In this document: positions 58,703 through 64,000 of the stretch, piece by piece
How the letters are laid out: each line of letters begins with the position of its first letter
Numbering within the stretch: the first letter of the stretch is position 1
Source: Opitutales bacterium
GTDB taxonomy: Bacteria > Verrucomicrobiota > Verrucomicrobiia > Opitutales > Oceanipulchritudinaceae
Direction of reading: 5' to 3'
NCBI GenBank assembly: GCA_020831485.1
Contig: JAFIGG010000008.1
Coordinates: 1 to 64,000, forward strand
Length of the DNA stretch: 64,000 nucleotides
Translations under genes and position numbers: made by a program
Notes under the pieces: model-generated
Seen by the model: only the letters and a program-made list of their open reading frames with translations
Told to the model about the DNA's origin: nothing
Database searches by the model: none

Positions 58703-59437
58703 ATGGAAAGCGAAAACCCAAATCAACGGCCTCAGCAGGAAAGCCTGTTCACCAGCATCTTCTTCAACATTCTGGCACCGGTGCTCCTGCTTACGCAGGG
58801 CGATCGCCTGATCGCGGAGCCTGCGTATGTGCTGATCATAGCGCTCGCCTTCCCGGTCATTTATTTCATCTATGACCTGCGCCGACGCGGCAAAAAAAAC
58901 CTTATTTCGGTTATTGGTTTCGTCAGCGTTTTACTGACGGGCGGCGTCGGTCTGCTGGAGTTGCCGCGCTTCTGGTTCATCGTCAAGGAAACCGCAATCC
59001 CGGCATTGATCGGGCTGGCGATCATCGGCTCACTGAAAACGCGTTTCCCTCTGGTCCGCACCTTTCTGTTCAGTCCTCAGGTTTTCGATGTGGACCGTAT
59101 CCAGCAAGCCCTGAGCGAGCGCAACAACCAGCCGCAGATGGACCGGGCTCTCGCACTCTCAACCTGGATGCTGGCGAGTTCTTTTTTTGTCAGCGCGGTG
59201 CTCAATTATTTTGTCGCCAACTACTTCATTCAAACCGAACCAAGCGTCGACAAGGCTCAGTTCAACGCCGAGGTCGGCGCAATGACGGGTTGGAGTTTTC
59301 TGATCATCGCCCTGCCCTGCACCGTGATCATGATGGCGGTGCTGTTTTACCTGATTCGCCAGATCAAACAACTGACGGGGCTTGAAGTCGACGATCTGGT
59401 TGCCGCTGCCCACAAGCAGCCCGACTCCATCAACTGA
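58703..59437 (+). CDS. Integral membrane protein, VC0807 type
   Basis: ATG 58703 gives 244 residues with about six TM helices. The segments LAPVLLLTQGDRLIAEPAYV, FPVIYFIYDLRRRGKKNLIS, GFVSVLLTGGVGLLEL and FIVKETAIPALIGLAI match my memory of the VC0807-type membrane protein family, whose function is unknown. The open frame extends upstream over coaB but that part is antisense. Its 3' end overlaps the ligase gene on the other strand by 8 bp. Confidence 0.8.
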   Translation: MESENPNQRPQQESLFTSIFFNILAPVLLLTQGDRLIAEPAYVLIIALAFPVIYFIYDLRRRGKKNLISVIGFVSVLLTGGVGLLELPRFWFIVKETAIPALIGLAIIGSLKTRFPLVRTFLFSPQVFDVDRIQQALSERNNQPQMDRALALSTWMLASSFFVSAVLNYFVANYFIQTEPSVDKAQFNAEVGAMTGWSFLIIALPCTVIMMAVLFYLIRQIKQLTGLEVDDLVAAAHKQPDSIN

Positions 59438-60386
59438 ACCACTCGCGGGCCAGTTCGATGCGCCGCGCACTCTCGGGCAGATCATTTGTGTCCAGCCAGG
59501 ACTCAACCTGACGCAGCCGTGGCACCAGCCCACGCCGATTGGCGATCTGGATGTTGAGCCCGGGACGGGCATTCATCTCGAGAATCAAAGGGCCTTTGTC
59601 GCGGTCGACCACGATGTCCACACCCAGATAGCCCAGACCCGTTGCTTCGTAGCAGCGACAGGCAATGCTCAACAATTCGTCCCAATCCGGCACCTGGAAC
59701 TGATTCAAAGACAAGCCGGTGTCCGGGTGTTTGTCGATCAGGTGGTTGTACTGCACTGCCTGCAATGGCCTTCCATCCGCCAGGTCCAGACCAACCCCAA
59801 TTGCGCCCTGGTGCAGATTGGCCTTGCCGTCGGACTCAGCCGTGGAAAGCCGCAGCATGCCCATAACCGGGAAACCCTGAAAAACCAGAATCCGGATATC
59901 CGGGACCCCTTGATAGCTCATGGCTTCAAACAGCGGGTCTGGCTGAATTCGGTATTCAACCATGGCCGTGTCCAGGCGGCCTCCCAAACTGTGCAAGCCA
60001 CTCAGTATATTCGCCAGGTAGCGCTCCATCTGACTGCGCAGCAATACCGCACCACTCGCCTTGAGGTACTGTTCTCCCTCTCGTCCTGAAACGACCAAAA
60101 TTCCGTTGCCACCCGAACCTTGGGCGGGCTTCACCACAAAGTCGGCGTAATCGCCGAGCAGTTGATGGAAGTGTTTTACTTCGTGATTATAGCGTATGAC
60201 CCCGTACAGGGGAGGTGTCTTCAAACCCGCGTTGAGAGCAATCTTTTTGGTCTCCAGCTTGTCGTCGACCATCGGATAAAGCTCACGGGCATTGTATTTC
60301 TGAATGAAATTAAAATTCCGGCTATTCAGGCCGAGAATCCCAGCCTGCGAAAGAAGCTTCGGTGCCCGTAACCAATTTAACAGCAT
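59430..60386 (-). CDS. ATP-grasp ligase, alpha-L-glutamate ligase-like
   Basis: This 318-residue ATP-grasp enzyme has a family-specific N-terminus (ILGLNSRNFNFIQKYNARE), the nucleotide-binding FVVKPAQGSGGNGILVV and the magnesium-binding ILEMNARPGLNIQIAN. It belongs to the RimK-related group found with an inactive transglutaminase/7TM protein and a retropepsin-like protein, and that partner set is exactly what lies upstream. Such ligases form an amide bond with an amino acid or peptide; the substrate is unknown. Its ATG overlaps the upstream stop by 1 nt. Confidence 0.9.
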   Translation of the reverse strand: MLLNWLRAPKLLSQAGILGLNSRNFNFIQKYNARELYPMVDDKLETKKIALNAGLKTPPLYGVIRYNHEVKHFHQLLGDYADFVVKPAQGSGGNGILVVSGREGEQYLKASGAVLLRSQMERYLANILSGLHSLGGRLDTAMVEYRIQPDPLFEAMSYQGVPDIRILVFQGFPVMGMLRLSTAESDGKANLHQGAIGVGLDLADGRPLQAVQYNHLIDKHPDTGLSLNQFQVPDWDELLSIACRCYEATGLGYLGVDIVVDRDKGPLILEMNARPGLNIQIANRRGLVPRLRQVESWLDTNDLPESARRIELAREWFS

Positions 60387-61972
60387 CAGGATTTAGGCAA
60401 AAAGGATTGGAAGCGGCGCAGCTCCGTGAGGCGGTAGCCGCTGTACTGGCCGAGCAGCAGAATAACCGCGAGGACGACCAGCAGAAGTTCGGGAAAGGTA
60501 TAGGTCAGGTGGCGGATTTCCGCAGCGCTCATCACTAGAAAAGCGGCCACCGCAACAAACAGACTTCCGGACATTTGAATCAACGCAGCCTCACCCCCTT
60601 CTTCCTCCCAGAGGATGGATAGGCGCTCAATTGTCCAGGCAATGATAATCATGGGGAAGAAGGTCACCTTCAGTCCCTCAGCCAGATTCATGTGGTGACT
60701 GACAATACTCATCCCTGCCATCAGTAATATGACAACAATCACCACCGCACTGATCCGCGGTACGACCAGCAGGTTCAGGTGAGACAACAGCGAGCGGATT
60801 CCCAACCCGGCTCCCACCACCACAAGAAATAGCAGCAAGCCGGGCAGCAGACGGGTCTCCTGGAAGGCCATCGCAATCAGAATCGGCATAAATGTGCCCG
60901 AAGTCGGAATCCCCACGATATTGCGCAAAAGCACGATGACCAGCGCACCGAAAGGAATCAGCAATAGCCGTTTAAACACGTTCTGATCCTCGATCGGCAA
61001 ACTGTATATCGAGTAATCCAGCAAAGCATGATCCTGCTCCTCAAGCCGTTGAAAGGCCAGAGTCTCAGCGGGTCTGGTGTCCCGCAGCACGGAAAAACGC
61101 ACCTGCGAACCGCGCCCGCCTTCGAGGTCGAGCAGCGATTGCCCTCCCCTTTGCCAACGGAAGAAAAACTCCGGCACACCTGGATTGCCAGTCAAAGGAT
61201 CGATAAATACCCAGCGCTGGTCATGATAAACCTCAATACCTTCAACAACAGGCTGAAACCGCCGCCCGTCAGCCAGGTAGACTCCTCTGATCAATCGGGT
61301 CGGAATCCCCTCGGTCCGCAACAGATCCAGGACCAGTCGACTGCGCCGATCTTCGGCCGAATACCGCGACAGCAAGAGACTGACACTCTGGTCATCCTGA
61401 CCATTCCGCAGCAAACGCACCAACTGCATGGCGAAGGACTCCGTATCGGCTGATATACGCCTGACCCTGTCCAACACCTCATCGACCGCAAGGCGATCCG
61501 CGCTTTCCCAGAAAGGCGCCGGATCTGATACCGGCAAAATACTCAGCTCACGCTCACGCATAGCTGCTGCTTCGGCGCTGGGACGCCGCACGATCTGCGT
61601 CCGGTAATACAAGCGCTGGGATCCATCCGCCTCACGCTTGGTCCACTCAGCCCGCTCGCGCCCATCCGCGCCAACGGTTCGAAAGAAGCCATAACCAAGC
61701 GAGGAGAAACTCTCATCAATCCGCTGGAACTCCGGAGAACCACTGGGCAAGGCCAATGTCGCCCGCACAGGCCGCCCGTCCGCCTGAAAGGAAATCTCCG
61801 CTTCAATCGTCCACACCGTTTCAGCAGAACGGGGACTCAGAGGGAAGCCATAGCTCCGGTGTTTGTGAATAGCCAAGCCAAGCCCGACCGCCGTCAGCAG
61901 AAGCGCCAGCACCCACACCTGCAGACGCGGTGAGAAGCGCCGTTGTCGAATGACCTTGAGCGCCTTACTCAT
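60386..61972 (-). CDS. Inactive transglutaminase-like protein fused to multi-TM domain
   Basis: The 528-residue protein has an N-terminal TM helix (about 17-37) and a periplasmic transglutaminase-like domain (about 45-310). A C-terminal bundle of about seven TM helices (about 330-515) follows. In the transglutaminase part, GIPTRLIRGVYL and WVFIDPLTG are kept. The catalytic cysteine position holds no Cys (the preceding segment is SAEDRRSRLVLDLL), and the usual His is replaced, so it should be non-catalytic and may bind a peptide. It overlaps the upstream gene by 4 nt and the ligase by 1 nt. Confidence 0.92.
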   Translation of the reverse strand: MSKALKVIRQRRFSPRLQVWVLALLLTAVGLGLAIHKHRSYGFPLSPRSAETVWTIEAEISFQADGRPVRATLALPSGSPEFQRIDESFSSLGYGFFRTVGADGRERAEWTKREADGSQRLYYRTQIVRRPSAEAAAMRERELSILPVSDPAPFWESADRLAVDEVLDRVRRISADTESFAMQLVRLLRNGQDDQSVSLLLSRYSAEDRRSRLVLDLLRTEGIPTRLIRGVYLADGRRFQPVVEGIEVYHDQRWVFIDPLTGNPGVPEFFFRWQRGGQSLLDLEGGRGSQVRFSVLRDTRPAETLAFQRLEEQDHALLDYSIYSLPIEDQNVFKRLLLIPFGALVIVLLRNIVGIPTSGTFMPILIAMAFQETRLLPGLLLFLVVVGAGLGIRSLLSHLNLLVVPRISAVVIVVILLMAGMSIVSHHMNLAEGLKVTFFPMIIIAWTIERLSILWEEEGGEAALIQMSGSLFVAVAAFLVMSAAEIRHLTYTFPELLLVVLAVILLLGQYSGYRLTELRRFQSFLPKS

Positions 61973-62601
61973 TTAGAACACGGGTGGCCCGCCAGGAAGG
62001 TTTCGTCCGAATCAATGAGACCCAAGCCCTTCAGGTAATTACGCCCAATCAGGATTTGGTAAACAAAGTTACTGCGGTCTGCCAAGCTGAACTCAACCTC
62101 CTGGTGAATCTCGCCCAGTTTCACTTCCATTTTAACGACCGGACGGCGCTGAGGATCGTCTCCATGCTGCACGATTCGGAGCCAGCGACTGACAGGGCGC
62201 TCGATATCGACCATCTCGCCTGACTCGGGGTGCTCAATCTTGAACCGGACCCAGTCATCTCCATCGCGCTCGAATTCGGTCAGATCCTGAGCGTTCATCG
62301 AGGATGTTCTCGCTCCGGAATCCAGCTTGGCCTTGATCTGGACGCGCTGCGGAAGAACACAAACCCATTCGACCCAGCCAAATACATAGCGTTCACCGAC
62401 ATCGCGGATACGAATGCCTTCGGATGGATCCCACTCAACCACTTCGTCCTGTTCGCGGACTTCCTCCGCTTCGGCAACAGAGTCAGCTTTCTCCCCGGAA
62501 CCGTTTCCATTCGGCACGGTCGCACAGCCAGCGGCAAAAACAATCATCAGGAGCCAGGTCAATTGACCCCTGCCCGCACGACCGAAAAGTGAAGTGGACA
62601 T
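61969..62601 (-). CDS. Retropepsin-like lipoprotein (annotated in databases as ATP-dependent zinc protease)
   Basis: ATG 62601 gives 210 residues. A lipoprotein signal ends VFAAGC (Cys26), with Ala rather than Leu at -3, so lipidation is likely but not certain. An acidic linker (about 35-60) follows, then a retropepsin-like domain with Asp94 in KLDSGARTSS, the flap region VRFKIEHPESG, and ILIGRNYLKG. Family knowledge places it with an ATP-grasp ligase and a transglutaminase/7TM protein. It may act as a peptidase on a product the ligase makes. Upstream ATG codons at 62616 and beyond would spoil the signal peptide. Confidence 0.88.
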   Translation of the reverse strand: MSTSLFGRAGRGQLTWLLMIVFAAGCATVPNGNGSGEKADSVAEAEEVREQDEVVEWDPSEGIRIRDVGERYVFGWVEWVCVLPQRVQIKAKLDSGARTSSMNAQDLTEFERDGDDWVRFKIEHPESGEMVDIERPVSRWLRIVQHGDDPQRRPVVKMEVKLGEIHQEVEFSLADRSNFVYQILIGRNYLKGLGLIDSDETFLAGHPCSK

Positions 62602-62668
62602 TTTCTGTAAAGCCATTTGGGGGCACGATGGGGCAAAAGTATCGGGAGTCAATTTCCCATGCTGTGTT

Positions 62669-62690
62669 CCAGGGAAGAATTATTCCCTGG
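62669..62690. promoter_or_regulatory. Inverted repeat in the divergent intergenic region, possible operator
   Basis: Perfect 8-bp arms CCAGGGAA and TTCCCTGG are separated by GAATTA. A further half site CCAGGGA lies at 62728-62734. The dyad is between the retropepsin-like lipoprotein gene (start 62601) and the LOV kinase gene (start about 62754). It could be an operator for one or both, or a transcript hairpin. It lacks a T-run. Confidence 0.45.
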
Positions 62691-62753
62691 ATTCTAGCGA
62701 AATTATCTACAGCAATCGTTGCAAAATCCAGGGATAAAGGCATCACTGACACT

Positions 62754-64000
62754 GTGCCGATCTTGTCAAAGCTGAGCTCCCGCACCCTTTTTGAAATCGG
62801 GCAGGACGCCATCTTCATCGCAGATGCGAAATCCGGGACCATTCTCGAAGCCAATCGAAACGCCCAACAGCTGTGCGGTGCTGAATTGCATGAACTTCAG
62901 AAGCGGCAGCTAGTGGATTTGCACAGCCCCTCGAGCCGGGAGCAATTGCGGGCCCGCATCGACGAACGGCGCCCGCCAGACGACGATGACCCGGAGATAC
63001 TTGAGATTGAAAACAGCTCCGGATTCACTGCCGTTTGCGAAGTTCAGCTGCACTGGGTGGAACAGCAAGACCAATGCTTTCTGATTGAGATAGCGCGGGA
63101 CGTCACCGAACGGGTCCGGGCCTCCGAGGAGATCAACCTGCGCAATGTCGCCATCGCCAGTTTCTCCGGTGGGGTTACCATCGCCGACGCCCGCCAGCCG
63201 GACCTGCCTCTGATCTACATCAACCGTGGCTTCGAGGAGTTAACGGGCTTCAAAGCCAAGGATGCCATCGGCCGCAGTTGTCGTTTTCTACAAGGGGCAG
63301 ACCGGAACCAGGAGGGCCTGGACACCCTGCGTGCTGCTCTCAAGGCGGGCGAATCCTGCGTCGTTCGCCTGCGCAACTATCGCAAGGATGGCAGCCTCTT
63401 TCACAACGAGCTCCACCTTTCGCCGGTGCGCAACGAGCAGGGTGAGCTGACGCATTTTGTCGGTTTGCAGATCGATGTCAGCGAACGGGTCCGCAACCGC
63501 GACCTGATCACCCGCAGTGAACGGCGCTACCGCCTGCTGACAGACAGCATCGAAGATTTAATCACCCGCCGGACACAGGACGGATTGCTCGAGTTTGTCT
63601 CCTCCGCCGCCGAAACCATGCTGGGCCTACAACCCGAAGAGTGGGTTGGCAAAGACTACCTCGAGTGCGTCCATCCAGACGACAGGAAGGCCTGCGCACA
63701 TCAGGCACAGCGCATTTTCGAGACTGGAGAGGCTTCCACAATGCGGCTCAGGCTCCGCCACGCGGATGGAGAATATGTCTGGATCGAATCCAGGGAGAGC
63801 CTCGGCGAGCCCTTGGAAGATGGAAGCGAACCGCTGCTCGTCAGCGTCAGCCGCGACATTACCCGGCAGAAACAGGCTGAAGAGGAAGTTCGCCAGGCAC
63901 TCGAAAAAGAACGGGAGCTCAACGAGATCAAGACCCGGTTCATTTCGATGGTCAGCCACGAATTCCGCACGCCGATGACCAGCATCAAGGCCTCCACCAC
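62754..64000 (+). CDS. LOV/PAS sensor histidine kinase (3' end outside window)
   Basis: At least 415 residues. PAS1 spans about 10-118. A LOV-type PAS domain (about 130-252) carries GRSCRFLQG with Cys176, the residue that forms the flavin adduct in blue-light receptors, followed by LRNYRKDGSLFHNEL and HFVGLQIDVSE. A third PAS domain (about 262-370) and the start of HisKA (FISMVSHEFRTPMTSIKAS with the phospho-accepting His) follow. Asn of the usual GxNCRFLQ is Ser here. The start is uncertain: GTG 62754 is chosen, GTG 62664 is also in frame. ATPase domain and partner regulator lie outside the window. Confidence 0.88.
   Translation, partial: MPILSKLSSRTLFEIGQDAIFIADAKSGTILEANRNAQQLCGAELHELQKRQLVDLHSPSSREQLRARIDERRPPDDDDPEILEIENSSGFTAVCEVQLHWVEQQDQCFLIEIARDVTERVRASEEINLRNVAIASFSGGVTIADARQPDLPLIYINRGFEELTGFKAKDAIGRSCRFLQGADRNQEGLDTLRAALKAGESCVVRLRNYRKDGSLFHNELHLSPVRNEQGELTHFVGLQIDVSERVRNRDLITRSERRYRLLTDSIEDLITRRTQDGLLEFVSSAAETMLGLQPEEWVGKDYLECVHPDDRKACAHQAQRIFETGEASTMRLRLRHADGEYVWIESRESLGEPLEDGSEPLLVSVSRDITRQKQAEEEVRQALEKERELNEIKTRFISMVSHEFRTPMTSIKAST

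Follow-up and report, generated by a model that had tools for sequence, protein, structure and literature searches.

Coupling of a LOV domain to a HisKA kinase has been described for YF1, in which the LOV domain drives the kinase via a coiled-coil linker and the kinase carries an HExx(T/N/Q) phosphatase motif (PMC6798134). YF1 is an engineered fusion of YtvA and FixL that acts on FixJ (PMC6798134), whereas the Opitutales kinase described here holds its LOV domain between two PAS domains and has a partner with a LytTR domain. A LOV-PAS-kinase order is shared with the Brucella LOV-HK (structures 6ph2, 6pps and 6ph4), whose LOV domain in 6ph2 is structurally close to the Opitutales LOV domain (Z 21.0, rmsd 1.2, 33% identity). 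The Brucella protein is an HWE-type kinase with the canonical Asn, while the Opitutales kinase is of the HisKA type, has an extra N-terminal PAS domain and carries Ser in place of this Asn. The best match in both sequence and structure is the LOV domain of Mrub_1259 from Meiothermus ruber (9vf7, 9vf8), a protein named as a histidine kinase, which differs in having Asn in GRNCRFLQG and Val instead of Thr at the position of residue 416 in AsLOV2. The same Ser and Thr residues, at the same pocket positions, are found in the AsLOV2 variants N449S and V416T (PMC10751770, PMC3867380), but these are engineered single mutants of oat phototropin, whereas in the Opitutales kinase both residues are natural and occur together with Gly 414 and Leu 494. 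Finally, short LOV proteins of Methylocystis have a native Thr27 at the equivalent of AsLOV2 position 416 that speeds adduct decay, but they lack a kinase and have lifetimes of 38-180 s (PMC4416707).

Whether a LOV receptor integrates light over minutes or tracks it as it changes depends on its recovery rate, and there is a demand for fast LOV switches in optogenetics. In our literature search, which mostly covered papers available without subscription, we found neither a LOV histidine kinase joined with a LytTR regulator, nor the string SCRFLQ, nor a published measurement on a natural Ser-type LOV domain. We consider it probable, for the reading taken as a whole, that the Opitutales kinase is the functional sensor of a blue-light two-component system with a lit state that probably reverts fast. 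If true, the one substitution that speeds AsLOV2 most among published variants is already at work in nature, in a kinase whose output is a compact two-gene system, and a light-reading LytTR system is present in a little-studied verrucomicrobial group.

The window, by which we mean the whole 64,000-nucleotide stretch that was analyzed, comprises bases 1-64000 of a contig of 72,626 bases (C29), and the features of the locus are collected in Table 1. Beyond the window end, the kinase frame continues to a stop at contig position 64634, giving 626 amino acids when counted from the GTG codon. An ATG at 62628 would give a frame of 668 residues, but the in-frame stretch 62628-62753 exhibits no codon bias (codon-position G+C of 0.43/0.45/0.43, as against 0.65/0.41/0.72 from 62754 to the window end). 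In the longer frame, whole-protein alignments start at residues 43-50 for five of the six best relatives and at residue 152 for the remaining one, and one tblastn alignment (G016) starts at residue 37. Thus, the GTG is the better start, as the upstream stretch lacks codon bias and is matched by relatives at most in its last residues.

Table 1. Features of the LOV kinase locus and its surroundings (contig coordinates).
Feature	Coordinates	Strand	Remarks
rloABC-like operon: retropepsin, inactive transglutaminase with 7 TM helices (RloB-type membrane protein), ATP-grasp ligase	59430-62601		
RloA-type retropepsin, PF05618	61969..62601	-	neighbor, outside the kinase-regulator system
Gap between divergent genes	62602..62753		if the rloA-like gene starts at 62601, judged by eye from the lipoprotein signal
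Inverted repeat, perfect 9-bp arms and 6-bp center	62668-62691		within the divergent gap
LOV sensor histidine kinase gene, PAS-LOV-PAS-HisKA-HATPase	62754..64000	+	GTG start; runs beyond the window end
N-terminal PAS domain	62781..62951	+	PAS_8 match
LOV domain	63138..63509	+	124 aa; matches solved LOV domains
Codons AGT TGT, Ser (AsLOV2 449) and photoactive Cys (450) in GRSCRFLQG	63276..63281	+	
Second PAS domain, between LOV and kinase	63525..63794	+	
Codon of predicted phospho-acceptor His in SHEFRT (HExxT motif)	63957..63959	+	HisKA extends past the window
Response regulator, receiver and LytTR DNA-binding domain	64631-65368		4-bp overlap with the kinase stop

Pfam analysis recognizes three PAS stretches, a HisKA domain (PF00512, 53.3 bits; curated cut-off 26.9) and a HATPase_c domain (PF02518, 103.1 bits; curated cut-off 26.4), which gives the domain order listed in Table 1. 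The NCBIfam model for blue-light-activated histidine kinases (NF052306, BluLightHisKinLov) scores 122.4 bits against a cut-off of 450 and covers residues 170-300 only. An earlier note, made from the window alone, had described a LOV sensor kinase with an intact adduct-forming Cys, which the domain matches bear out, and had suggested looking to the right of the window for a partner response regulator. Such a gene does lie directly after the kinase, and its product has a receiver domain (PF00072, 102 bits; curated cut-off 30.2) and a LytTR domain (PF04397, 79.5 bits; curated cut-off 22.6).

The motif at the center of the earlier note, GRSCRFLQG with the Cys kept and Asn changed to Ser, is present inside a clear LOV domain, where GGCCGCAGTTGTCGTTTTCTACAA at 63270-63293 (+) encodes GRSCRFLQ and is followed by a Gly codon. 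The Asn of the consensus GXNCRFLQ is absent, with Ser encoded by AGT (63276-63278) where Asn is usual; a 2025 paper terms GXNCRFLQG superconserved (PMC12202551). The motif is not a chance occurrence, because it is located inside a 124-amino-acid stretch that matches solved LOV domains. The best phmmer match of this stretch is the Meiothermus ruber LOV domain 9vf7 (E 2.6e-33). The alignment used for an AlphaFold2 model of the LOV domain comprised 30 Ser-type LOV sequences, namely that of the window and those of 29 of the 30 loci described below, with L137 excluded as its LOV domain is cut by the locus end. The model has a mean pLDDT of 95.0 and superimposes on 9vf7 with a TM-score of 0.95 (Z 21.9, rmsd 1.1 over 124 residues), with 47% identity of the LOV domain in the structural alignment. 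The LOV core also aligns with AsLOV2 without gaps, where C450, R451, Q454, R467, N482, N492, L496 and Q513 are kept, while positions that tune kinetics are changed (N414G, V416T, T418A, N425L, I427L, N449S, I466L and F494L). We take R451, Q454 and R467 to be FMN contacts of the LOV domain. N482, N492 and Q513 are named as FMN contacts of AsLOV2 (PMC3903614). All of the contacts checked in this alignment are thus kept, and the loss of FMN-contact residues that the earlier note had named as evidence against its reading is not observed. With its Cys and these contacts kept, the Opitutales LOV domain would be predicted to bind FMN and to form a reversible adduct absorbing at 390 nm.

To describe the distribution of the pair we searched 55 genomes, comprising the source genome and 54 relatives, with 17 genomes (the source included) belonging to the family. 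The kinase was detected at E <= 1e-60 in 11 of the 55 genomes, every one of them inside the family, and regulator orthologs that are 71-74% identical occur in the same 10 relatives as the kinase. The family thus has 11 genomes with both proteins and six with neither ortholog; two of these six contain a distant LytTR protein (35-40%), and the completeness of two of the six is only 80-84%. The kinase gene adjoins the regulator gene in every one of the 10 genomes in which this is testable, which are the source and 9 of the 10 relatives; the tenth relative (G013) has a contig that ends within the kinase and falls outside this count. In one genome of 74% completeness (G004, L022:3357-6002) frame changes break up the kinase and a stop interrupts the regulator, which reflects either decay or an assembly error. 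In the Ser-pattern scan described below, the same LOV domain is found in six records named Opitutales or Verrucomicrobia, and isolate names, GSL and CSSed among them, might indicate a saline or soda-lake origin.

Conservation within the family is uneven across the kinase. Identity to the Opitutales kinase is 55-74% for the LOV domain in the ten relatives, but only 19-27% for the N-terminal PAS domain (residues 48-160, seven relatives with the whole domain) and 35-43% for the second PAS domain (six relatives that possess it). Identity of the HisKA region in the ten relatives amounts to 58-70% and equals or exceeds that of the LOV domain in five of them. Consequently, no other sensor domain comes close to the LOV domain in conservation, though the LOV domain is not where the protein as a whole is most conserved. 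LOV and HisKA regions are found in all 11 family kinases while the PAS domains are not; the second PAS domain is missing from four (G003, G006, G010 and G011), and in G003 and G010 the LOV domain is the sole sensor domain, as judged from the alignment and by eye. This pattern bears on the possibility that the LOV domain is degenerate and free of flavin, with the other PAS domains doing the sensing. AsLOV2 N449A, N449I, N449K and N449T bind no flavin (PMC10751770), so position 449 matters for binding, but AsLOV2 N449S retains its flavin and photocycles (PMC10751770). Given this, and a LOV domain whose conservation far exceeds that of both PAS domains and which stands alone in two relatives, we regard a flavin-free domain as very improbable. 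On the kinase side, SHEFRT is present in all 11 family kinases and fits the HExx(T/N/Q) motif of bifunctional kinases (PMC6798134). Nine kinases have a linker of 34 residues from the DxT motif to the kinase His, and the other two have one of 41. The difference is a single heptad, in line with what the heptad rule described for such kinases predicts for a coiled-coil signaling helix (PMC6798134).

The residue ahead of the photoactive Cys is Ser in 8 of the 11 family kinases (AGT in seven, AGC in one) and Asn (AAC) in the three from G003, G010 and G011, a swap that involves one transition at the second codon base. Since three of the 11 orthologs have Asn, Ser is not essential, and these Asn sister genes provide a ready natural comparison. 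The position of AsLOV2 residue 416 is a native Thr in ten family kinases and Ser in the eleventh, with Ser 449 and Thr 416 occurring together in eight. Ser is found in all seven kinases that have the second PAS domain and in one of the four that lack it, a count that disregards kinship and from which no association is claimed. A tree of the regulators is unrooted, because the outgroup rows were empty and were dropped, with a midpoint root used for drawing only. On this tree the Ser/Asn trait needs at least two changes, and its clustering was equaled by shuffled labels in 95 of 500 trials. The shortest reading is an ancestral Ser with two reversions, with Ser present on both sides of the drawing-only root.

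Ser-type LOV domains are also encountered well outside of this family. We scanned one genome per species (84,980 species) for exact GxSCRF(L/F)Q with an AGY serine, and obtained 115 loci, 30 of which encode a LOV domain (blastp E <= 1e-8). These 30 consist of six from the Opitutales family and 24 others from several phyla, including four Halomonas (L119, L165, L172 and L183), two Pseudoalteromonas, three Gallionella, five cyanobacteria, two haloarchaea, Mesorhizobium, Rhodocyclus and Dyella. The count is a lower bound because TCN serines and other sequence contexts are missed. With Ser-type LOV domains in 24 further genome records of several phyla, the Asn-to-Ser change is, as judged by sequence comparison, recurrent and mostly kept in the family rather than a product of decay, and other lineages may have reached Ser 449 independently. 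A separate sample of 387 genomes from the phylum, searched with an Asn/Ser(AGY) pattern, yielded 11 matches spread over 10 genomes, of which three are Ser-type LOV domains, all in the Opitutales family, and six are Asn-type LOV domains, one of them in the family; a chance match in G300 and a match in G359 with only a 9-residue open stretch were dropped.

The kinetic consequences of these residues can be gauged from measurements on AsLOV2 and Methylocystis proteins. AsLOV2 N449S recovers with a tau of 0.99 s, about 60-fold faster, with flavin kept and the photocycle intact, and is the fastest single AsLOV2 variant in the literature according to that report (PMC10751770). Likewise, AsLOV2 V416T recovers in 2.6 s as compared with 55 s, or 21-fold faster, and was the fastest variant in a 2013 screen (PMC3867380). 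Acting in the opposite direction, N414G (615 s) and F494L (206 s) are slower than wild type AsLOV2 (80 s) (PMC3903614). The Opitutales LOV domain natively has all four residues, the speeding Ser 449 and Thr 416 and the slowing Gly 414 and Leu 494. When the four published factors are multiplied by hand, starting from 80 s (21-fold and 60-fold acceleration, 7.7-fold and 2.6-fold slowing), the result is about 1.3 s, a value that serves as illustration only, as additivity is not assured and further substitutions are unaccounted for. By analogy with these mutants, the protein could be a naturally fast-reverting (~1 s) LOV histidine kinase that informs a LytTR regulator of the blue-light intensity at each moment, a proposal that we advance tentatively and at somewhat less than even chance.

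The main competitor is a blue-light receptor with an ordinary or long-lived lit state, in which Gly 414 and Leu 494 cancel the effects of Ser 449 and Thr 416. In keeping with this, the two slowing substitutions are documented in AsLOV2, and three family members do without Ser. Additionally, native Thr at the 416 equivalent speeds a Methylocystis LOV protein about 100-fold relative to an Ile mutant (80-180 s against 12,300 s for T27I), and the lifetimes of the Methylocystis proteins with native Thr are still in the range given above (PMC4416707). Against it are the product of published factors, with the same proviso on additivity, and the co-occurrence of Ser and Thr in 8 of 11 family kinases, and we judge it rather unlikely.

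The earlier note had proposed that the protein is probably a blue-light receptor kinase, or else a redox or FMN sensor should the Ser change weaken photochemistry. The first part holds in that a LOV kinase with its Cys is present; the switch to redox or FMN sensing is not the first expectation, because AsLOV2 N449S speeds dark reversion with photochemistry retained (PMC10751770). A sensor that binds flavin and responds physiologically to its redox state or to FMN level, with light being incidental, would have precedent in that flavin photoreduction can signal in LOV proteins that lack the Cys (PMC4682037), and LovK, a LOV kinase, is on record as one said to integrate light and redox. A pure redox sensor needs no photoactive Cys, however, and this Cys is present in all 11 family kinases, the Ser types included, which makes such a sensor quite unlikely.

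Under the preferred reading, that of a blue-light two-component system, blue light would cause the FMN in the LOV domain to bond to the Cys of GRSCRFLQG. From the LOV domain, the resulting change would reach the HisKA dimer by way of helical linkers and of the second PAS domain, and would there shift the balance of kinase and phosphatase activities. As output, the extent to which the adjacent LytTR response regulator is phosphorylated would change, leading to altered transcription. Adjacency and co-occurrence of the two genes are consistent with light-dependent phosphotransfer from kinase to regulator. If Ser 449 and Thr 416 act as they do in the AsLOV2 mutants, the lit state would be short-lived, on the order of seconds, and the system would thus follow current light intensity and store no memory of light. 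The two other PAS domains could carry other signals.

The divergent neighbors of the kinase resemble the rloABC operon involved in hypo-osmotic stress of Pseudomonas (PMC12239564). The ATP-grasp glutamate-ligase-like protein passes the TIGR02291 cut-off of NCBIfam, while RloA3, the best NCBIfam match of the retropepsin, is below its cut-off, as is the RloB score. The operon occurs here in a verrucomicrobial genome, though according to a 2025 paper 96% of RloB hits come from Proteobacteria. A functional tie of the kinase-regulator pair to this operon, with light or another cue acting on osmotic or envelope stress through the shared gap, draws on the perfect inverted repeat in that gap, on the role of rlo genes in Pseudomonas hypo-osmotic stress (PMC12239564), and on relatives of one genus that have a divergent glutamate dehydrogenase (G011 and G016), a nearby MscS channel (G006) or nearby Mrp-type antiporter genes (G006 and G016). 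The rloA, rloB and ligase genes, however, do not adjoin the pair in any of the 10 relatives examined, three of which are represented by contigs of 3.4-5.2 kb with 1.5-2.6 kb visible upstream of the kinase. Consequently, the placement beside a peptide-ligase operon, which the earlier note had singled out, looks local and is not borne out as meaningful.

The inverted repeat likewise gives no sign of a regulon site, having no second place in the genome at <=2 mismatches and two places at 3 mismatches, equal to a reversed-pattern control (2). Across ten upstream regions of 250 nt (without that of G004), spaced 4-mer pairs were shared by at most 4 of 10 (6 patterns), and approximate dinucleotide-block shuffles reached 4 in 11 of 20 runs, with 6 patterns in one, so the candidate shared promoter motif was rejected. 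All told, the tie to the rlo genes is improbable. Conserved neighborhood was also discarded as a clue to targets; ten proteins of the source locus were compared with the loci of ten relatives, with Pfam analysis of eight neighbors, and only the kinase-regulator pair recurs across genera. Other neighbors of the kinase in relatives include a solute-binding protein (G003) and a DJ-1/PfpI protein (G005). Of 19 genomes, 15 have a photolyase (PF00875), which is uninformative as a correlate because it is found both with and without the LOV pair; a rhodopsin occurs in 1 of the 19, which is not the Opitutales source genome.

Several minor features of these loci were also recorded. An 8-bp half of the inverted repeat has a further copy at 62727-62734. 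At two loci of one genus (L023:10352-17286 and L020:11767-16496), Mrp/Mnh-type antiporter genes are located a few kb after the pair, with MscS in one of them. Further along contig C29, at 70452-71002 (L002:15452-16002), a small overlapping gene pair resembles, by eye, a RelB/YafQ-type toxin-antitoxin system, and an IS110-like transposase, also identified by eye, follows at L002:16687-17610.
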